DNA of 59,503 nucleotides from positions 1 through 59,503 of IMG/VR virus record IMGVR_UViG_3300009184_000049; one strand, 5' to 3'. Both the position numbers and the translations under genes were made by a program. This document shows positions 32,746 through 53,160 of the stretch, piece after piece. The notes beneath the pieces were generated by a model. That model was not told the DNA's origin. It did not search any database and was given only the letters and a program-made list of their open reading frames with translations. The number at the start of each line of letters is the position of its first letter. The stretch's first letter is position 1. Source of the DNA: a virus.

Positions 32746-34779
32746 CTACTTGTTTATTTTAATTTCACAGTAATCAGTAGTGCAGTACGCTTCACCTTGA
32801 GCCTCAAGATTATCTACACCATCGTAAATTGCAGCAAAATCAATGTGCTTTAATTTACCGATATAAGACTCATATTGCTCTTCAGTAATTTCTGTGTATG
32901 GCTGCTGTGGATAAACTGTATTTCCCATTGGTAGGAATGAAACAGCCTTTAATTGTCCCTCGTACATATTAAGTGCTGGAACAATGTGCTTTGACTCTGT
33001 TTCCTTATCAAATGATAATGTTACAGAAACTCCATTGTCAGACCAATACTTCTGAGCAGTTGCAGCAAGTGCAATCTTTTCAAATAATGTTACATCCTTT
33101 TCAGATCTTGGATGACCTGATTTTATTGGGAAGTAGATTACTGATGTATTTGCTGATACTACGTCGTCTTCAATTGTGTACCCTGCTGCTTTGAACAAAT
33201 GCATCATTGGATCTGTGTTTCCAAATCGAACTGCACGAAGAAAGAACTCTCCTCCAGGACCCCAGTGAACTCCAGGAGTTGCACCAGAAAGAATTGAAAC
33301 AGAACCTGATGGCTTAACAGTTGTTACACGAATTGATTCACGAACACATAGCCATTCTGAATACTGGTGATCGTAATGGCGAATCTTGTTATATCCTTCA
33401 TCCATCCACTCACGAACAATTGGTAAACCCTTTTGATCTGCAAATGATGCAATGCCAGTAAGAGATGTACCGATACGACGATTTCGTTGCATGATACCGT
33501 TTGTTTGTGGCCAGTGTGTTGGAACAAGTGTTACGGTCTTTCCATATAGGTATGCAAACTTCAGGGTACGCAAGAAGTCTTCCTTAGATTCATGACGATT
33601 CAAGTGCACTTCTACAAGTGTACACAATTCGTATGATTCTAATGGCTGCTCCGCACAGGGATTAAAGCCCATCACACGATAGTCTTTTCCGTCTGGCGCA
33701 TCCTTTAGTCTGCCATAATTACGAGCAACATCAAGCCAGATAAAACCTGGTTCTCCGTTTTCCGTAATTAAATCTACATAATCTTCGTATTTTGTTCCTA
33801 CTTCTGCTGAAATAGAATTATTAGACATCCAGGCCCATCCTGGATTTTCTGGATCAAACGAGTTACGCTCTGGGAATAGTTCTGAATTCTTTAGATTCAT
33901 AAATGTTTCATCCCCTGCATTACCCAAAGCAAGGGTTGCTGAGCGACGGACATTACCTGATACCACGCAGGTACCAATAAGGTTTACAAGGTCTACGATA
34001 GCACGAGAGTCTAGTGTTTCACCTGCTCTGGAGCCGATTACACGGTCTATATGGTCATGCAACTTGATAAGAGGTGCAGGGCCTGATGCAACGCCTCCAA
34101 AGCCCTTTATAGGGGCTCCAAGAGGTCTGATTAAATCATAGTTAAACTTCTGAATACTCTGGTTTGCTCTAAGGTAAGAATTGATTAGAAGTCTAACTGA
34201 CTCTACCCATCCTTCACGAGTGTCTGGAATTTCAAAGATCTCTTCTGGCTCTGTTGGGGCATAGATTGAGAAATGCTTATCCTGTCCCACTGTATCAAAC
34301 CCTACACCGATTCCAAGCATAAGAGCATCCATAACCCAAGCAAACAGGGCTCCTGGATCGTTCTTATCAAGGTCTTTTGTAGAAACCATTGCACAATTTT
34401 GTAGTGCTGCTGAGTTCTTCTTCTCCATAGTCATAGGAGTTCCGAATGCCCACATACCTCGTCCTGGGGGTGTCCACTTTAATTCAAACATTCTTTGGAA
34501 TGCTTCTTGTGCAGATTTTTGTGCCTTGTAGTCATTCCAAGGCAAACGGTTTTCTTTAGCATGATTCTTTTGAACTGAATACATACCCTCGATTACACGA
34601 CGACAAACCTCATGCCATCTTTCTTTAGTTCCATCTTCCTTCATTCGAGAATATGTACGAATAAAAGTAATTTCTCCAAGTGAATTTTCTGCTGCATCCT
34701 TAAACCCAAATGGGTTTTCTTGGCTTTTGAACTTTTCTACAAAGTCCTCTGGAAGTTTAAAACTAAAAAAATCTGACAT
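32746..34779 (-). CDS. adenosylcobalamin-dependent (class II) ribonucleotide reductase
   Basis: 677 aa, close in length to monomeric class II reductases of the RTPR type. Visible signatures: Cys129 in AALQNCAMVS (redox pair), the NPCAEQPLESYELC block near residues 370-385 with the two cysteines 11 apart, TVKPSGSVSILSGATPGVHW, and a C-terminal Cys666-x4-Cys671 pair for re-reduction. It turns ribonucleotides into deoxyribonucleotides for phage DNA synthesis and needs B12 from the host. GAAAGGA precedes the ATG and a TGCTATACT promoter lies upstream. It sits alone among structural genes. Confidence 0.9.
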   Translation of the reverse strand: MSDFFSFKLPEDFVEKFKSQENPFGFKDAAENSLGEITFIRTYSRMKEDGTKERWHEVCRRVIEGMYSVQKNHAKENRLPWNDYKAQKSAQEAFQRMFELKWTPPGRGMWAFGTPMTMEKKNSAALQNCAMVSTKDLDKNDPGALFAWVMDALMLGIGVGFDTVGQDKHFSIYAPTEPEEIFEIPDTREGWVESVRLLINSYLRANQSIQKFNYDLIRPLGAPIKGFGGVASGPAPLIKLHDHIDRVIGSRAGETLDSRAIVDLVNLIGTCVVSGNVRRSATLALGNAGDETFMNLKNSELFPERNSFDPENPGWAWMSNNSISAEVGTKYEDYVDLITENGEPGFIWLDVARNYGRLKDAPDGKDYRVMGFNPCAEQPLESYELCTLVEVHLNRHESKEDFLRTLKFAYLYGKTVTLVPTHWPQTNGIMQRNRRIGTSLTGIASFADQKGLPIVREWMDEGYNKIRHYDHQYSEWLCVRESIRVTTVKPSGSVSILSGATPGVHWGPGGEFFLRAVRFGNTDPMMHLFKAAGYTIEDDVVSANTSVIYFPIKSGHPRSEKDVTLFEKIALAATAQKYWSDNGVSVTLSFDKETESKHIVPALNMYEGQLKAVSFLPMGNTVYPQQPYTEITEEQYESYIGKLKHIDFAAIYDGVDNLEAQGEAYCTTDYCEIKINK

Positions 34780-34822: not shown

Positions 34823-34871
34823 GAGTTTTATGAAAAGCAAAACTCTACCTAAATCTATTGTTGAGAGTTTT
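34822..34871 (-). repeat. three alternating 8-nt arms upstream of the reductase promoter
   Basis: On the plus strand AGAGTTTT occurs at 34822-34829, its complement AAAACTCT at 34839-34846, and AGAGTTTT again at 34864-34871. The middle arm can pair with either neighbour, so two exclusive hairpins are possible. It may be an operator over the -35 region or a folded 3' end of the upstream message. No T-run follows, so it is not a standard terminator. Confidence 0.4.
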
Positions 34872-35583
34872 ACTTAAAGTTTTTCTTTTGCCAAAACTTT
34901 AATCTATAACCATTTTGGAAAGTAGATCTAGTTTTACTTCTTTGCTCTTCTACTTTTTTTGCTGAAAAGTTTTTGTCTAATTCCATTGTCCAATCTTCTC
35001 TCTTAAAAGGAAAAACCTGAAACATTGGAGTTCCTTGTTTAATAGTTCCTTTAAAATTCTTTTTTACTAAAAATGATAAATGACCATCAGTAAAATAGTT
35101 ATCAGTATCAACTACAGCATCGATAGCCTTTAGGGGTGATGAAGGTTGATGGATTGGGTTTGTAAAAAATGTACTATATCCTTTATCAGTTTGAACCATC
35201 CAAGTAGGATGAATTCTTAAAATTTGACTACAATAAATATCTTTATCAATAGGTAGATGAGATACTTGTTCTGGAAGATGTTCGGCTATCAGTGCTGAAT
35301 AATGCTTACTCATTCCAGCAGGTAATTGAAGATTAATTTTTCCATCAGTTGTATCTATATATATATCGCATGGAACTTTTAAAAGGTATCCCATAGACAT
35401 TGCATCAAAAAAAGGTTGACATTTTTTTACAGTTAAATGAAGTATACCTCTATCAGGTATATCAGTTCCAGAAATGGCTGGTTGTTCTTTGTACCAGGAG
35501 GGAATATTTTTTGTTGCTAATTCTGGTTCTGGAACAATATTTAATAGTTGCGGATACATCTGTAAAAATCTAATAGTATTCAT
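34870..35583 (-). CDS. conserved phage protein of unknown function (DUF6065-like)
   Basis: 237 aa. Segments such as HPTWMVQTDKGYSTFFTNP, DAVVDTDNYF and KQGTPMFQVFPFKREDW resemble a family widespread in marine and freshwater phages and annotated only as hypothetical; I think it is DUF6065 but cannot confirm. The composition suggests a compact beta-rich fold. AAAGGG precedes the ATG at 35583 and a TGATATAAT box lies upstream. Confidence 0.6.
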   Translation of the reverse strand: MNTIRFLQMYPQLLNIVPEPELATKNIPSWYKEQPAISGTDIPDRGILHLTVKKCQPFFDAMSMGYLLKVPCDIYIDTTDGKINLQLPAGMSKHYSALIAEHLPEQVSHLPIDKDIYCSQILRIHPTWMVQTDKGYSTFFTNPIHQPSSPLKAIDAVVDTDNYFTDGHLSFLVKKNFKGTIKQGTPMFQVFPFKREDWTMELDKNFSAKKVEEQRSKTRSTFQNGYRLKFWQKKNFK

Positions 35584-36531: not shown

Positions 36532-37860
36532 TTATTCTTCTGTTTGGTAACCGTCAAAGACTAAGAAATGCTCTGTATAGAACATATCATAAGGTTCACA
36601 GTTAATAGAAACAACTTGATGAGGGATATATGAAACTATTAATTCAGTTATAGGTATCCAAGTGTTTGTATCTGTAGACCATAATTCGTCTGTATCTAAA
36701 AGATTAATAGATGCAATCATTTTAGCAACATTGTCTCTTTTTACAAGCAAGAAGTGAGATCCTGAATAAAATTCACCATTTATTGATACAGATTCTTCTG
36801 CTTCTGTAGTTCCTATATTCATAATTGTTGTTTCTTTATTAGGCAAAAGATTTAATGTTTCTGGATTACCTGTCCAGTTTTCCATTTGTTCTTTTGTAAA
36901 GTTTGCTCCTAGTTCAGGAATTTCTGTAGATACAAGAATATCTCCTGCTTTAAGATTTTGTGCTTGTGTATATCCATCTGTTGTTAATACTAATGTTTCT
37001 ACACTTACAGATTTTCCACGATAACCACCAAAACCAAAGTCATATGCTCCGAATGCACCGAATGCTCCGAAGGCACCAAAAGCACCGAAGGCACCGAATG
37101 CACCAAAAGCACCAAAAGCACCAAAAGCACCAAAAGCACCGAAGGCACCGAATGCGCCAAAAGCACCGAATGCACCGAATGCACCGAAGGCACCGAAGGC
37201 ACCGAAGGCACCGAAGGCACCAAAGGCACCAAATGCTCCGAAGGGTGCAAATGAGAATGTTGTGGTGACAGATCCTGATTGAGAAGATGTTCCTGAGTTA
37301 CCATTTGCATTTGTAGCATAAACATTATATGTCTGAGCAGTTCCTTGTTCTTGTCCAACGCTTACAGATGTTCCTGATGTATCTCCAGATTTTCCATCAT
37401 CAGATGTCCAATGATAATTAGTAATTGCTGAGCCACCATTTGCTGGTGCTGTCCATGAAACCGAATCTGTTCCTGCTGATGGAGAAGATGCAGATGGGGC
37501 ACTAGGTGTTGCTGGAACAGTGGTTACTGTTACTGAGTTAGATGCAGCAGATGCTTCACCTGTTCCTTCTGCGTTAGTTCCTACTACTGTAATAGTTGTA
37601 ACAGCACCTGATCCAAATCCAGTAATCGTTATTGGAGAAGATGAACCTGTTGCTGAGTGTGTTGCATTATGTACGTTGCAATATCCTGATGCTGTATAAG
37701 ATGTAGCAGCATTTGGACCTGTGGGAGTAAATGTTACAGTAACTGCACCATTGTTATATGGCCGTCCTGTTCCAACATCTGTTGCTGTTCCAATAGTTGG
37801 TGCATATGGTTTCAAGAAGTCATTTGCTCCTTGACTCATTCTACCTGCTTGCTTTGACAT
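36532..37860 (-). CDS. virion protein: Ig-like domains, 22 FGA repeats and a C-terminal Hint domain
   Basis: 442 aa. Residues about 20-205 hold two Ig/fibronectin-like domains (ITITGFGSGAVTTITVVGTN; ITNYHWTSDDGKSGD). About 207-272 is an uninterrupted run of 22 FGA triplets. From about 283 a Hint (hedgehog/intein) fold follows: SVSVETLVLTTDGY at its start, NLKAGDILVS, a block-B-like SGSHFLLV, and FYTEHFLVFDG at its end. The first residue is Ser where inteins have Cys, and the end lacks the usual His-Asn, so full protein splicing is not expected; N-terminal self-cleavage or ester transfer remains possible. AGGGAGA lies before the ATG. Confidence 0.72.
   Translation of the reverse strand: MSKQAGRMSQGANDFLKPYAPTIGTATDVGTGRPYNNGAVTVTFTPTGPNAATSYTASGYCNVHNATHSATGSSSPITITGFGSGAVTTITVVGTNAEGTGEASAASNSVTVTTVPATPSAPSASSPSAGTDSVSWTAPANGGSAITNYHWTSDDGKSGDTSGTSVSVGQEQGTAQTYNVYATNANGNSGTSSQSGSVTTTFSFAPFGAFGAFGAFGAFGAFGAFGAFGAFGAFGAFGAFGAFGAFGAFGAFGAFGAFGAFGAFGAFGAFGAYDFGFGGYRGKSVSVETLVLTTDGYTQAQNLKAGDILVSTEIPELGANFTKEQMENWTGNPETLNLLPNKETTIMNIGTTEAEESVSINGEFYSGSHFLLVKRDNVAKMIASINLLDTDELWSTDTNTWIPITELIVSYIPHQVVSINCEPYDMFYTEHFLVFDGYQTEE
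37045..37242 (-). repeat. coding array of 22 nine-base units (Phe-Gly-Ala)
   Basis: 198 nt of 9-nt units with varying third codon positions, so the repeat is kept at protein level rather than being a recent DNA expansion. It forms a very regular FGA tripeptide run between the Ig-like and Hint parts. Confidence 0.9.
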
Positions 37861-37891: not shown

Positions 37892-39445
37892 TTATGCTGA
37901 CAAGTCGCCGAAGACTAGCCATCCGCTTGCTGTTTTCATTGCTGTTGCAACTGAGTATGTTGTTCTGAACTTAAGTCCTGGGGTTCCAACGACTGAGTTA
38001 GTACTAGCAAAGTATGCTCCAGTTCCTGATTCCTGGAAGAAATCAATTGACTGACCAGTTGAGTATCCTGTTGCTGGAAGAGTAATTACTACTGCTCCAG
38101 TTAGCGGAATAAACTGATCTGCCCGTGATGCTGCGATTGTCTGTGCTCCTGCTGCAAGTGCAGTTGGGATATTAGTAATCGAAGGAACGCCAGCCTTTGT
38201 CTGTGTACCGTCTGTAAATGCTACACCTGAAGCAGAGGCTGTAATTAATCCTGTTGCTGTAATTGCTGGTGCTGTTACTGTTCCAGTAAATGTTGGATCT
38301 GCCTTTGGTGCTTTTAGACCAAGGTTAGTTGTAAGTGTTGTAGAGAAGTTAGCATCATTTCCAAGAGCAGTTGCTAATTCATTAAGTGTATCAAGTGCTG
38401 CTGGTGCTGAGGCTACAAGGTTTGAAACTGCTGTTCCTACGAATGCTGTAGTTGCAACTTGTGTAGTTGACGTTCCTGCTGCTGCTGTTGGAGCAGTTGG
38501 TGTACCAGTAAGTGCTGGTGAAGCAAGTGGTGCCTTTAGATCAAGTGCTGTCTGTGTAGCAGTTGAGATTGGCTTTGCTGAGTCTGCTGTATTGTCAACA
38601 GATCCTAAACCAACCATTGACTTTGTGATACCTGATACTGTTCCAGTAAATGTAGGTCCTGCAAGGTTAGCCTTAAGTGCCAATCCTGAGTTAACAGTTG
38701 CAGTTAATGCAAGTGCTGATGTATCTGCAATACCATGAACATTTGTAGTATCAACATCATGTGCTGAAATCTTTGTGTCTGCTGCAGATGCTGCTGCTGC
38801 AATTGCTTCAGATTTTGCTGTTGCAATTGCTGCTGCTTGAGCAGTAGAAACTGGTTTATTTGCATCTTCTACATTGTCTACTACCCCAAGACCAATTGAA
38901 GCCTTTGTGACGGATGCAACCTTTGTAGTTGCATCTGCTGCTGCTGTTGAAATTGCAGCATTTGCCTTTGTAGTTGCATCTGTTGCTGCTGTTGAAATTG
39001 CAGCATTTGCCTTTGTAGTTGCATCTGTTGCTGCTGCTGCGATTGCGGCTGCTTGTGCAGCATTTGCCTTTGTAGTTGCATCTGTTGCTGCTGTTGAAAT
39101 TGCAGCATTTGCCTTTGTAGTTGCATCTGTTGCTGCTGTTGAAATTGCAGCATTTACGTGTGAAAGGTATGCAAGAGATGAAGTATCTGAAATTCCATGA
39201 ACACCTGTTGTTGCTGAATTATGTGTAGAAAGTATTGATGCTGCACCTAAAGTTAAAGTGTTTGTGGTTGATGTTAAATCTGCTGAAGTAGTATAGTAAA
39301 CTAATGAGTTCCAAGCAGTTTGGCCATCACCAATTTTAGACTTGCCAGTGTTTGTTTCGAGGCCAATCTCTCCTGCTGCTAAAGTAGGATTTGCTGCAGT
39401 CCATTGTGTAGAAGTTCCTCTACGCTGTTGCATTCTTGTTGTCAT
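37892..39445 (-). CDS. tail fibre protein with alanine-rich coiled-coil repeats
   Basis: 517 aa. It opens with a short fibre-attachment module (QQRRGTSTQWTAANPTLAAG then GLETNTGKSKIGDG) shared by the next fibre gene. About 90-190 is a set of near-identical AATDATTKANAAIST repeats predicted to form a trimeric coiled coil. HGI(S/A)DT and KSMVGLGSVDNTAD modules and a beta-rich tip (SIDFFQESGTGAYF) follow. AAGGAG lies before the ATG at 39445. Confidence 0.75.
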   Translation of the reverse strand: MTTRMQQRRGTSTQWTAANPTLAAGEIGLETNTGKSKIGDGQTAWNSLVYYTTSADLTSTTNTLTLGAASILSTHNSATTGVHGISDTSSLAYLSHVNAAISTAATDATTKANAAISTAATDATTKANAAQAAAIAAAATDATTKANAAISTAATDATTKANAAISTAAADATTKVASVTKASIGLGVVDNVEDANKPVSTAQAAAIATAKSEAIAAAASAADTKISAHDVDTTNVHGIADTSALALTATVNSGLALKANLAGPTFTGTVSGITKSMVGLGSVDNTADSAKPISTATQTALDLKAPLASPALTGTPTAPTAAAGTSTTQVATTAFVGTAVSNLVASAPAALDTLNELATALGNDANFSTTLTTNLGLKAPKADPTFTGTVTAPAITATGLITASASGVAFTDGTQTKAGVPSITNIPTALAAGAQTIAASRADQFIPLTGAVVITLPATGYSTGQSIDFFQESGTGAYFASTNSVVGTPGLKFRTTYSVATAMKTASGWLVFGDLSA

Positions 39446-39503: not shown

Positions 39504-40805
39504 TTATTCTACTCCCCCACCATCAAGCACAAGGTTTAGAGATGAAATATCTTGTATTGCTGCTTTAACAAACGCTGTTGTAGCAACTCTTGTTGAGTCG
39601 TTACCAAGTGTTTGTGTTGGTGCCGTTGGATTTCCAGTAAGTGCTGGAGATGATAGAGGTGCTTTTGCTGATAAAGCAGTTGTAATTGTTGATGCGTAGT
39701 TAGCATCATCTCCAAGTGCTGCAGCAAGTTCATCCAAAGTATCTAGTGCTGCTGGGGCTGATGCAATTACTGCATTTACAGCATTTGTTGCTGCAGTGAT
39801 TGCTTCTGACTTAGCAGTTGCAATATCAGTTGTAATTGCTGTTCGCAATGTTGTATCTGCTGCTGTAGCAAAGGCTTTTGCTGCGTCAGCCTTTGTAGTA
39901 GCATCTGTTGCTGCTGCTGAGATAGCCTCTGACTTGGCAGTTGCTGCCTTTGTAGTAGCATCAGTTGCTGCTGCTGAAGTTGCTGCAGATTGTGCTGCGT
40001 TGGCTTTGCTTGTTGCATCAGTTGCTGCTGCAGACTGTGCAGCATTAGCCTTTGAACTAGCGTCTGCTGAAGCAGTTGCTTCTGCTGCAGCCTGTGCTGC
40101 GTCTACATAAGTCTCTGTTGCCACTGTTGAATCAATGTCAAATGCTTCTGTTGTAGGGTTCCAATCAATTCCAACACCAGCAAGTGCTGACTGATCTACT
40201 GTCGCACCAGCAAGAGCGCTTGAGAGGTCTGATTGAGTGACTAGAAGTGCAGTATTTGCAATTCCGTGAATATTTGTTGTATCTGATTCATGTGAAGCAA
40301 GGGCAGTTGCTGCTGTTGTTTCTGCACCTGACTTGGCATTATTAGCCTTAGTAGTTGCATCAGATGAAGCAGTTGAAATTGCTTCAGACTTAGCAGTTGC
40401 AATTGCTGTAGCCTGTGCTGTAGATACTGGCTTGGCTGTATCTGCTGTATTATCTACTGACCCTAAGCCAACCATTGACTTTGTTACGCCAGAGACTGTT
40501 CCTGTAAATGTTGGGGAAGCAATTGGGGCTTTTGAAGACATAGATGAAGCAATTGTTGTAAAGAATGCTGGATCATCGTTAATTGCTGCTGCAATCTCGT
40601 CAAGAGAATTTAGGAGTCCTGGGGCGCCAGCAATCATTGTATCAAGATCAACAAAATAACTTAGAGTTGACCAGCGATTGGTTCCATCACCAATCTTAAA
40701 TTTATTTGTATCTGTTTCATAGCCAATCTCGGCTGCTGAAAGAATTGGGTTTGCTGATGTCCACTGTGCTGCGGTACCTCTGCGTTGCTGTTGTCTAACT
40801 GCCAT
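39504..40805 (-). CDS. tail fibre protein, paralogue of the fibre at 37892
   Basis: 433 aa with the same N-terminal module (QQRRGTAAQWTSANPILSAA, IGDG), the KSMVGLGSVDNTADTAKP module, a HESDTTNIHGIANT module and many A(T/S)DA(T/S)(S/T)KA coiled-coil repeats. It ends near LNLVLDGGG without an extended tip domain, so it may be a stalk that pairs with another fibre. A strong TAGGAGGA and a promoter precede it. Confidence 0.72.
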   Translation of the reverse strand: MAVRQQQRRGTAAQWTSANPILSAAEIGYETDTNKFKIGDGTNRWSTLSYFVDLDTMIAGAPGLLNSLDEIAAAINDDPAFFTTIASSMSSKAPIASPTFTGTVSGVTKSMVGLGSVDNTADTAKPVSTAQATAIATAKSEAISTASSDATTKANNAKSGAETTAATALASHESDTTNIHGIANTALLVTQSDLSSALAGATVDQSALAGVGIDWNPTTEAFDIDSTVATETYVDAAQAAAEATASADASSKANAAQSAAATDATSKANAAQSAATSAAATDATTKAATAKSEAISAAATDATTKADAAKAFATAADTTLRTAITTDIATAKSEAITAATNAVNAVIASAPAALDTLDELAAALGDDANYASTITTALSAKAPLSSPALTGNPTAPTQTLGNDSTRVATTAFVKAAIQDISSLNLVLDGGGVE

Positions 40806-48849: not shown

Positions 48850-48858
48850 AGTATATCA
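48850..48858 (-). promoter_or_regulatory. extended -10 promoter of the modification gene block
   Basis: TGATATACT, about 19 nt before the ATG at 48831 with AGGAGAT between. Its TGA is also the stop codon of the fibre gene (48858-48856). Confidence 0.5.
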
Positions 48859-51366
48859 TGTTGAGGTATATCCTGAGAAACCGCCACAGCCATCATAAAC
48901 ACAATTATTATATCCGCATGGAACGATGCTTATTGGACACCAGTAACAGTTTGTTGCACAAGTATTTCCTGCGGGTGCGGGTGCGACAGGTGCTGGAGCA
49001 ACTGGAGCAACTGGGGCGGGTGCAACAGGTGCTGGTGCATGGTCTCCATCACATCTATTTGGACAGCCATTAGGGGTCCAACATAAAGTTCCATTTCCGT
49101 ATGGTCCACAAGCACCTCCAGATAGTGCTGGATCGCAAGGGCTGCAATCTAATGCTACAGGTGTAGGTGCTGTTGGTGTAGGTGCAACAGGTGTAGGTGC
49201 AACTGGGGTAGGTGCATTTGGATTTGTACAAGATGAACCAGATGCTCCATTTTCTACACAGTTAACTCCTGTACCGCTACCGTTAGATGGGCAAGGGCTT
49301 GATGGATTTGGAGCATCTCCTGATGCACAATAATGCCATCCAGAAAGAAGTGAAGGATAAGAAGCAGTTGGTGTAGGAGCAACTGGTGTAGGGGCAACTG
49401 GTGTAGGTGCGGGGGTACATAGTGGTCCTGATGCAGTTCCATCTTTACAGTCACCATTAATTACATTTGCTTGAGTACATGGGCTTGCTGGGTTAGGAAC
49501 GTCACCATTTGTACAATAACGTAGTCCAGAAAGTAATGTTGGATAAGAAGCAGTTGGTGTAGGAGCAACTGGTGTAGGACATGCTGCTTGAGCATTAGCC
49601 ACAGCATTTTGATAGTTTGTAGTTGCTCCTGATTCTTGGCATCCTGCTATACTTCTATAATCTGATCTAGCAGTATTATTGTTAGGTCCATCAACAACTA
49701 ATGCTTCACCGCTACAGCATCCATAAGCGTAGTAGGTTGTGGCTGTTGGTGTAGGAGCAACAGGTGTAGGCGCTGTTGGTGTAGGAGCAACAGGTGTAGG
49801 CGCTGTTGGTGTAGGTGTTGATATTGGTCTACATTCTTCAAATCTATCTGAATAAACATATCCATCTGGACATGTTGGTGTAGGAGCAACAGGTGTAGGC
49901 GCTGTTGGTGTAGGTGTTGTCACACAACTTGATGGAGCAACTCTTGCAGAACTTGTTGAGCAGTCAATACTTGTTGCACCTATGTTGTTAAGAAGAGTGT
50001 TATAGACTGAGCATGCTTCATTAATGTTTGTAGTTAGAACGCTATCTGCATTTATAGAGAAACTTTCAACAACTGGTGCGCCCTGGTAGCAATATGAAAG
50101 ATAAACTGTTCCAGGGTTTACTACTTGCACTGTTGGACAACCAGAACCATAGCCAAGTTGTGAAACTATCTGTTCACTACTTAATCCTTGAGTGCTTGTT
50201 GTTCCAGTGTTTACAGTTGAACTTGATGGCTGTGTTCCATATGCTCCACCTCTCATAGCAGGAAATACTGGATCACAATAAGTATAAATGTCATATGTTG
50301 TTTGAGCAACTGGCGTTGGTGTTGGGGTATAGGGAACTCCATCACTATTGCAACATATTGTTGGATCAAAGCCACATGGATCTGAGAAACTTCCGCTAGT
50401 GTCTCCTGGTGGTGGACACACTAATGTAGGCGTTGGTGTTGGCGCAACTGGTGTTGGCGCAACTGGTGTTGGCGCAACTGGTGTTGGCGCAACTGGTGTG
50501 GGTGCTACTGGTGTTGGTGCAACTGGTGTTGGTGCTACAGGAGTAGGGGCAACAGGTGTAGGCGCTACAGGTGTTGGAGCAACAGGTGTTGGAGCAACAG
50601 GTGTAGGGGCAACAGGTGTAACTGGAGTTACTACGTTAAGTAAGTTTCCAAAAAAAAACCATGTATTGGTGTCTATTTTAACTAATGTGCCTTTTGAATA
50701 CTGTCCATCTAAAGACCGTATGTTAGATTTGCTATTAACTGATACTGCATTAGTTTCTGGATTAACAGTTACTGATCCCGCTCCTGTTTGAATTATATCA
50801 ATTGAATACCCTACTGGAATTTCTACTGAAGCATTTAATGGAAGTGTTACAGTCATTGGATTAGAAGAATACAAAATAGCAGTTTTGCCAACATCACTTG
50901 CAGATAAAATAAAATTTTCTGTTTTTGTTATAATTGTTCCAGCATTTGCAAGTCTTGGCTCAACATCAAATCTTTCGTCAACAGAGTTCCAATCAATAGC
51001 AGTTCCAGCAAGATTTGAATATTCTCCTGTAACACCGCTTACTGCTGATGAAATTGCTGTATTTACATATGTTTGTGTTGCAAGGTTTGCTGTGTTTGCT
51101 ATTCCGTGAATATTTGTTGTATCTGCTTCGTGAGCAGCAAGGGCTGCTGTAGCAGCAGTATCTGCATCTTTAAGGTTTTGAAGGTGTTTTGCTATTGAAG
51201 GTGTTACAAGATTTGCGGTATTTGTATTAGAACCATCATAAGTATAAGACCCATAGTGATAAAGTTTGAGGGCTGCTTGAATATCTGCTGCATCTGAAAG
51301 ACCAGGAACTTTTGCAGGGAAAAGACCAGTACCATTAACGGTATTATCAATGTTTTCTGCTGCCAT
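48856..51366 (-). CDS. proline-rich and cysteine-rich tail fibre protein
   Basis: 836 aa. Residues 1-130 are fibre base with a HEADTTNIHGIANT module shared with other fibres; 140-240 a beta domain (VTVTLPLNASVEIPVG-like); about 245-310 holds 12 VAPTP pentapeptides. Further PTPVAP/APTPTAP linkers then separate cysteine-rich units, including two copies of a ~45-residue unit (YPTLLSGLRYCTNGD and YPSLLSGWHYCASGD). The last ~90 residues are cysteine- and glycine-rich (CWTPNGCPNRC; CGYNNCVYDGCGG). Ala-Pro-Thr-Pro runs resemble hydroxyproline glycosylation modules of plant proteins. The modification genes follow directly. Confidence 0.75.
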   Translation of the reverse strand: MAAENIDNTVNGTGLFPAKVPGLSDAADIQAALKLYHYGSYTYDGSNTNTANLVTPSIAKHLQNLKDADTAATAALAAHEADTTNIHGIANTANLATQTYVNTAISSAVSGVTGEYSNLAGTAIDWNSVDERFDVEPRLANAGTIITKTENFILSASDVGKTAILYSSNPMTVTLPLNASVEIPVGYSIDIIQTGAGSVTVNPETNAVSVNSKSNIRSLDGQYSKGTLVKIDTNTWFFFGNLLNVVTPVTPVAPTPVAPTPVAPTPVAPTPVAPTPVAPTPVAPTPVAPTPVAPTPVAPTPVAPTPVAPTPTPTLVCPPPGDTSGSFSDPCGFDPTICCNSDGVPYTPTPTPVAQTTYDIYTYCDPVFPAMRGGAYGTQPSSSTVNTGTTSTQGLSSEQIVSQLGYGSGCPTVQVVNPGTVYLSYCYQGAPVVESFSINADSVLTTNINEACSVYNTLLNNIGATSIDCSTSSARVAPSSCVTTPTPTAPTPVAPTPTCPDGYVYSDRFEECRPISTPTPTAPTPVAPTPTAPTPVAPTPTATTYYAYGCCSGEALVVDGPNNNTARSDYRSIAGCQESGATTNYQNAVANAQAACPTPVAPTPTASYPTLLSGLRYCTNGDVPNPASPCTQANVINGDCKDGTASGPLCTPAPTPVAPTPVAPTPTASYPSLLSGWHYCASGDAPNPSSPCPSNGSGTGVNCVENGASGSSCTNPNAPTPVAPTPVAPTPTAPTPVALDCSPCDPALSGGACGPYGNGTLCWTPNGCPNRCDGDHAPAPVAPAPVAPVAPAPVAPAPAGNTCATNCYWCPISIVPCGYNNCVYDGCGGFSGYTST
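50434..50632 (-). repeat. 15-bp tandem repeat coding for VAPTP
   Basis: About 12 units of 15 nt with varying third codon positions, encoding repeated Val-Ala-Pro-Thr-Pro. More scattered copies lie at 49160-49400 and 49740-49910 between cysteine-rich modules. Confidence 0.85.
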
Positions 51367-52430: not shown

Positions 52431-52439
52431 ATTATACCA
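52431..52439 (-). promoter_or_regulatory. extended -10 promoter, leaderless start at 52424
   Basis: TGGTATAAT ends 6 nt before the ATG at 52424. The TAA stop of the collagen-like gene (52434-52432) is inside TATAAT. Confidence 0.6.
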
Positions 52440-53160
52440 CGCTGACGTATATAGATTTGATAATTACTGATGCATCATAATCTGTACGTATTTGAGGGAT
52501 TGCCCCATTACCCCAAATTTTTTGATTTTCAATAAATACATGTTGAGTTACAGTAATTGGATATGTGTGCTGATATTTGAGGGAACCAATAAATTGAGCA
52601 ATATCTAACTGGCTATTAGCAGAATAAGTTCTAACCCATACCTCTGTATTACTGCTATGGGTTGTTAGTTCAAAACTGTAGGTTATAAAAACTTGAGAGC
52701 CTTCTTTTAACCCTTTAAAATTAAAAGATCTAGAGTGATCATTCCACAAAGATGTACAACCTTTTGGAATATATTTTTCATTTGAAAGTCCTTCAGAATT
52801 TAAGAATACTGTTACCCATCCATCATCTCCTTCTGAAATTCCAAGTTTTATTGGTTTTTCAATTTTGTTAGTATAAGAAGCCCACCCTGCTTGTTGACCT
52901 GAAGAGGATAGACTGCTAAGTCCATCTGCCCCTTTTGGTCCCTTTTCACCTTTTGGTCCAATGTTTCCCGTGAAACCTTGTTCTCCTTTTTCTCCATCTT
53001 TCCCATCTCTACCTGCTGGTCCTTGAGGACCTTGGGGTCCAGGAACTGGAAGAAATGATAGTGTGTTTTCTTGATAAGGAGATGCTTGTGTTTGTTCAAC
53101 TTGTGCAGCATAAGAAGATTTTTTTGAACCAGGAAAATCCATAGATTTGGAAGCAGTCAT
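52432..53160 (-). CDS. collagen-like fibre protein
   Basis: 242 aa. Residues about 41-82 contain 14 consecutive Gly-X-Y triplets starting GPQGPQGPAGRDGKDGEK, a short collagen triple helix typical of phage fibres. The C-terminal ~140 residues form a beta tip (DDGWVTVFLNSEG, VFITYSFELTTHSSNTEVWV). Prolines occur at both X and Y positions, so a prolyl hydroxylase substrate is conceivable. A TGAGATAAT box 6 nt upstream predicts a leaderless start. Confidence 0.75.
   Translation of the reverse strand: MTASKSMDFPGSKKSSYAAQVEQTQASPYQENTLSFLPVPGPQGPQGPAGRDGKDGEKGEQGFTGNIGPKGEKGPKGADGLSSLSSSGQQAGWASYTNKIEKPIKLGISEGDDGWVTVFLNSEGLSNEKYIPKGCTSLWNDHSRSFNFKGLKEGSQVFITYSFELTTHSSNTEVWVRTYSANSQLDIAQFIGSLKYQHTYPITVTQHVFIENQKIWGNGAIPQIRTDYDASVIIKSIYVSVV

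Follow-up and report, generated by a model that had tools for sequence, protein, structure and literature searches.

Locus and gene architecture

The window, the whole stretch of 59,503 nucleotides analysed here (IMG/VR virus record IMGVR_UViG_3300009184_000049), carries a gene with an ATG start for a protein of composite architecture (Table 1). From a short N-terminus (MSKQAGRMSQGANDFL), the protein runs through two Fn3-like domains, 22 FGA triplets and the Gly/aromatic linker YDFGFGGYRGK into a Hint domain that extends to the C-terminus.

Table 1. Features at the Hint gene and its neighbours (positions in the window)
Feature	Position	Strand	Basis
Second upstream tail-fibre gene (Mtd_N)	39504..40805	-	
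Upstream tail-fibre gene (Mtd_N)	37892..39445	-	
Whole gene, Fn3-like + FGA array + Hint protein, 442 aa	36532..37860	-	
Fn3-like domain 1, residues ~21-116	37513..37800	-	AF2; relatives named fibronectin type III
Fn3-like domain 2, residues ~117-200	37261..37512	-	AF2
22 perfect FGA triplets, residues 207-272, predicted disordered	37045..37242	-	Sequence; AF2
Hint domain, residues 284-442 (core Ser284-Asp436 and tail GYQTEE)	36535..37011	-	Profile search, AF2, Foldseek
Ser284, position 1 (nucleophile position); predicted scissile bond Lys283-Ser284	37009..37011	-	Alignment
Block B Ser366-Gly-Ser-His369 (SxxH; TxxH in Cys/Asn relatives)	36754..36765	-	Alignment
Phe435-Asp436 in place of terminal His-Asn (G:6-G:7)	36553..36558	-	Alignment
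Partner gene, 165 aa, weakly GNAT-like, start 6 bases past the Hint stop codon	36028..36525	-	

Ahead of the array, AF2 models two beta-sandwich domains (residues ~21-200, pLDDT mostly > 90). An earlier note on this sequence had called them Ig-like; their number held up in the model, and the name Fn3-like fits better since relatives are called fibronectin type III. Pfam gave no direct match for the two domains of the window protein.

The count of 22 perfect FGA triplets, given in the same note, was exact. These consecutive units comprise eight distinct 9-mers. Compared with the majority codon, the array deviates 26 times at the third position and never at the first or second, although these are not independent counts because the copies arose by duplication. 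Against a near relative (L001), 31 of 63 codons differ silently and none by amino acid. Among the arrays of nine relatives, third-position changes far outnumber those at the first and second positions, which are absent from five of the nine; the L065 array has eight of them, from FSA/FAA units. As the variation within the window array is silent only, the proposal of selection on the repeat at the protein level holds on these codon comparisons. The FGA rod itself fared less well: full-length AF2 gave no ordered structure for the array (pLDDT ~26), with the Fn3-like and Hint parts well folded. Thus, the array is a flexible Phe-Gly linker in the model, and "rod" is an unproven label.

The source is a freshwater-type phage. 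Its major capsid protein is nearest to those of large Streptomyces phages (~44% identity), which suggests an actinobacterial host. A fibre gene similar to those upstream of the window Hint gene was found in the same place in 53 of 95 loci, and from this context and the annotated relatives we infer that the protein is located in the virion. Tandem repeats of 45 bp and 102 bp lie at 38920-39155, within the first upstream tail-fibre gene. Elsewhere, a small structural-looking protein with a short collagen-like stretch (GPQGPQGPAGRDGKDGEKGEQG) is encoded at 52432-53160(-), and what we take to be a ribonucleotide-reductase-like gene lies inside the structural gene block at 32746-34779(-).

Fold of the C-terminal domain

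The terminal Hint fold, already proposed from the letters of the sequence, is supported by three predictive routes. A 34-sequence Hint profile matched the bacterial intein-like domain 2LWY in PDB with E=1.8e-6, and the gp41-1 intein at ~0.01. AF2 modelled the domain with a pLDDT of 91 and a pTM of 0.86. Foldseek with this model also gave 2LWY as the best match (E=1.3e-7), together with the BUBL BIL2 domain, inteins and Drosophila hedgehog 1AT0; there were 44 PDB matches at E<=0.001 and, among the matches listed, all were Hint, BIL, intein or hedgehog. The model also resembles proteins of uncultured Caudovirales that are already labelled Hint, PASTA or Fibronectin type III. Searches of Pfam, PHROGs and NCBIfam with the window protein alone did not find the Hint domain and returned only repeat-driven, collagen-like matches.

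In the alignment, Ser284 falls on C1 (the catalytic Cys1 position), His369 of block B on the catalytic His and Asp436 on the terminal Asn. The earlier reading of a Ser for Cys at the start of the domain, an SGSH histidine and a missing final His-Asn was therefore right in all three places, with Phe435-Asp436 standing in the last.

Hint domains across phages

In IMG/VR, we confirmed at least 219 relatives of profile A1 and at least 152 of profile A2, two sets that overlap. The viral search patterns included the INCEPYD region and the residues immediately ahead of the final one. Ascertainment thus explains part of the conservation of these motifs; position 1, block B and G:7 lay outside the patterns. 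In two scans of GTDB genomes, no cellular relative could be confirmed, and a host-gene origin of the domain is thus left without support.

No relative of the window Hint, or of the L059 Hint, was found among 50,697 phage records. The divergent member L098 matches the C-terminal Hints of cultured Erwinia, Dickeya and Yersinia jumbo phages, and the Cys-type member L096 matches a Hint in Phage NCTB. These jumbo-phage domains end collagen-like proteins that carry virion structural or tail annotations (phrog_38766), and L059 matches the Hint part of that family with E=6.4e-5. Aligning the Ser/Asp domains against the phage Hints with Cys1, TxxH and His-Asn by hhalign (99%, E=8e-18) placed S1 on C1, H on H and D on N. 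Our search of the open-access literature turned up no paper that describes a Hint domain on a phage fibre; in the CBB and phiCbK papers, the term Hint is used only in connection with inteins.

When 42 records were searched whole, 40 had one Hint copy and two (G031 and G037) had two copies; thus, a rule of exactly one Hint per genome was rejected. The domain follows very different N-termini and rods: Fn3-like with FGA, PASTA with NPGF or Phe-His-Tyr repeats, proline-rich, Cys-rich and TPV-repeat fibres. The Hint tree requires at least six N-terminal and at least nine rod changes, approximate numbers since the classes were assigned by text patterns. Such joining to several partners is as expected of a processing module. 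Moreover, the domain lies at the C-terminus in every case, followed by few residues (mostly 4-16), so it is the chemistry on its N-side that could matter.

The Ser/Asp signature

We counted signature residues in 108 distinct phage C-terminal Hint domains. Ser1 was found in 83, all with Asp at G:7, and Cys1 in 25, all with Asn at G:7. Since the Ser/Asp set is a single clade (support 95), the 83 domains count as a single past change that all of them have retained, not as separate events. Identity within the clade goes down to ~30%, yet none of its domains departs from Ser1, SxxH and the terminal Asp. Among its 161 columns, 16 do not vary, including positions 1, B:7, B:10 and G:7, the four that drive the intein reaction. 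Judged by dN/dS (0.03-0.23 in nearly all pairs; 0.55 in one very close pair), the clade is under purifying selection.

A second difference concerns the acid. Asp at F:4 together with Asn at G:7 was found in 20 of the 25 Cys domains, and all 83 Ser domains have Asp at G:7 and no acid at F:4. From these residues, the active-site acid appears to have moved from F:4 to G:7 between the Cys/Asn and Ser/Asp forms. In inteins, Asp at F:4 was reported to activate Cys1 and can hydrogen-bond Asn at G:7, and inteins ending in Asp exist and can cyclise it (PMC4031507). In hedgehog, the general base is an Asp next to Cys1, to which it is coupled, and it also activates the second nucleophile (PMC9163320).

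At the C-terminal junction, 45 relatives present His-Asp followed by Ser; in the window, Asp436 follows Phe435 and precedes a Gly at +1, the first residue of the six-residue tail. Position F:4 is Ser in the window and Cys in three of the 83 Ser/Asp relatives, all with Ser1. Block F of L097:954-1847 and L098:772-1698 reads CINVEPYD, with Cys at F:4 (the class 3 intein nucleophile site) and with Ser1 and Asp kept.

The partner gene

The gene that follows the Hint gene belongs to a family found at 62 of the 83 Ser/Asp loci and at none of the 25 Cys/Asn loci, and it accompanies FGA, NPGF, proline-rich, FFPP and Cys-rich Hint types. At the other 21 Ser/Asp loci, including the L020/L065/L071 and Phe-His-Tyr groups, it is absent from the available sequence. 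A search for the family by itself retrieved 47 loci, 44 with an adjoining Hint and three that begin at a contig edge; the pattern was built from Hint-linked members and could miss distant Hint-free ones.

Pfam gave no clear match for the partner protein (best E ~0.035). The recurring weak matches were to GNAT, with sub-threshold Acetyltransf_1/_7 and acetyltransferase PDB hits at the motif R-x-Y/F-V-x-P-x-x-R-x-x-G. The partner could be an acyltransferase or a fibre chaperone. Another conserved neighbour, at 34870-35583(-) in the window (phrog_7084, weak DUF6065), is the next gene downstream of the Hint gene at loci without the GNAT-like gene (L020, L065, L071 type).

Comparison with known Hint domains

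The window domain belongs to the Hint superfamily, with its beta fold, Ser284 at a position held by Cys or Ser, and S366-G-S-H369 as the T/SxxH motif of block B. It also belongs to the phage C-terminal Hint group, as a homologue of phrog_38766-type domains at the C-terminus of a phage tail or virion protein. With the jumbo-phage members (Erwinia phage pEa_SNUABM_33, Dickeya phage AD1, Yersinia phage fHe-Yen9-02 and Phage NCTB) it shares the extreme C-terminal site on a repeat-bearing protein, the short tail, the EPYD motif and profile homology. They differ from it in Cys1, TxxH, mostly Asp at F:4, His-Asn, collagen-like rods and no GNAT-like neighbour.

By the residues that define these groups, the window domain is not an intein, a BIL or a Hog domain. 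Class 1 inteins end in His-Asn (Gln, Glu or Asp in some) before a +1 Cys, Ser or Thr, whereas here Phe-Asp precedes Gly in a six-residue tail and no host protein is interrupted. Class 3 inteins have Cys at F:4 (WCT motif) and no nucleophile at position 1; the window has Ser at both positions. BIL domains such as 2LWY of C. thermocellum are the best fold and profile match, and their variable +1 agrees with the absent +1 nucleophile of the window. To our knowledge, the BILs described so far carry Cys1 and usually His-Asn, whereas the window combines Ser1 with Phe-Asp in a phage fibre.

The hedgehog Hog/Hint domain (1AT0) shares the C-terminal site, N-side-only chemistry, a TxxH-like motif and a carboxylate as possible general base (PMC9163320). 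However, the window has Ser for Cys, the acid at G:7 rather than at position 46 and no sterol-recognition region, the protein ending six residues past the Hint core, and transfer to a second molecule is hypothetical here. If active, the domain would work like a BIL or hedgehog domain. In function only, S74/endosialidase-type C-terminal intramolecular chaperones are an analogy, as self-removing domains on low-complexity phage fibres (PMC7824862) with another fold and other catalytic residues (Ser-Lys).

Proposed mechanism and alternatives

Three observations go beyond the earlier reading: Asp is the fixed partner of Ser1, the module is common to many different fibres, and the downstream gene travels with it. 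The evidence tips us, with modest confidence, towards reading the protein as the precursor of a phage fibre or adhesin with a self-processing Hint at its C-terminus. The module occurs on more than 200 phage contigs, on very different fibres and in most cases next to a single small gene of its own; trimming or attachment of the fibre is thus its probable role. The reaction would most likely take place at Lys283-Ser284 and free the rod or transfer it to another molecule.

In the proposed sequence of events, the Hint domain would fold as predicted, and Ser284, aided by Ser366 and His369 of block B, would attack the Lys283 carbonyl in an N-to-O acyl shift. Going by conservation and known Hint chemistry, this would leave the Fn3-FGA part on an ester. 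Asp436, in place of the splicing Asn, may take over the role of the carboxylate kept at F:4 in Cys/Asn relatives and act as general base. Water would then resolve the ester and free the mature fibre from the Hint, or an external nucleophile would attach the fibre covalently; we slightly prefer release. The GNAT-like protein would be the partner of the module, as chaperone or modifying enzyme.

The conserved residues could also reflect structure, not catalysis, and the penultimate Phe/Tyr of the window sub-clade is unlike active inteins. Tfa/gp38-type proteins form fibre-chaperone pairs, and on this model a non-reacting Hint would be a folded cap for fibre folding, oligomerisation or attachment, with the downstream gene as dedicated assembly chaperone. 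The loss of the terminal Asn, and of the penultimate His in the window clade, fits this, as do the site at the C-terminus, the position of the gene directly after tail-fibre genes, and a Hint and neighbour that travel together across different rods like fibre tip and chaperone cassettes. However, these catalytic residues (Ser1, SxxH, terminal Asp) would be expected to decay in a dead cap, and their invariance in the 83 domains makes a processing role more likely; we regard the cap as a credible but minority explanation.

Covalent transfer is rather doubtful as a specific outcome. Here, an amine or hydroxyl of another molecule would attack the Ser1 ester and join the fibre to a second virion protein, glycan or lipid, the GNAT-like protein supplying or preparing the acceptor. 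Hedgehog offers a precedent with an Asp general base (PMC9163320), Asp is fixed at G:7, and an enzyme-like partner gene is tied to the Hint and not to the rod. Nevertheless, any acceptor is hypothetical, no region resembles the sterol-recognition one in a protein that stops so soon after Asp436, the GNAT assignment is weak, and some Ser/Asp Hints have no such neighbour; the last two points also count against self-processing as such. It is equally speculative that transesterification or aminolysis by the Ser/Asp Hint and its partner is a viral counterpart of hedgehog chemistry, reached by relocating the carboxylate from F:4 to G:7.

Ligation of the short tail to the fibre by a splicing-type reaction with Asp cyclisation is very improbable in the window, where Gly follows Asp436, Phe replaces the penultimate His and ligating six residues has no obvious use, even if Asp-ending inteins exist (PMC4031507) and 45 relatives present the His-Asp-Ser junction. 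C-terminal cleavage by Asp cyclisation may occur; in the window clade, it would free only this tail. The idea of an intramolecular Lys-Asp isopeptide was discarded, since position -1 is not always Lys.

If self-processing is right, phages would have in this domain, which recurs at the end of many unrelated fibres, a general means of maturing or attaching virion proteins that can be compared to the S74 chaperone-protease. The strict Ser1-Asp and Cys1-Asn pairing is a natural experiment in retuning Hint chemistry, the module could yield a cysteine-free tool for protein release or ligation, and the dedicated neighbour gene makes a testable two-component system.

Other Hint-bearing fibres and related genes

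A second fibre of the window, at 48856-51366(-), has APTPV repeats and Cys-rich inserts and no Hint. Its relatives in L025 and L066 end in a Hint, and G031 has the domain on both fibres; thus, the module moves between two fibre genes.

The second Hint of G037 and relatives (L096:315-1958 and L099-L104) has Cys1 and a terminal Tyr-Asn-Gly-Cys after FFAPP repeats. Its block B His is replaced (Glu in the alignment), and by these residues it is possibly an altered or inactive catalyst.

Finally, Phage NCTB has a gene for a Hint-like protein that stands alone (153 aa; L106:4486-4947), with a degenerate block A and an end near His-Asn. This gene directly follows that of the Hint-bearing collagen-like tail protein of the same phage.
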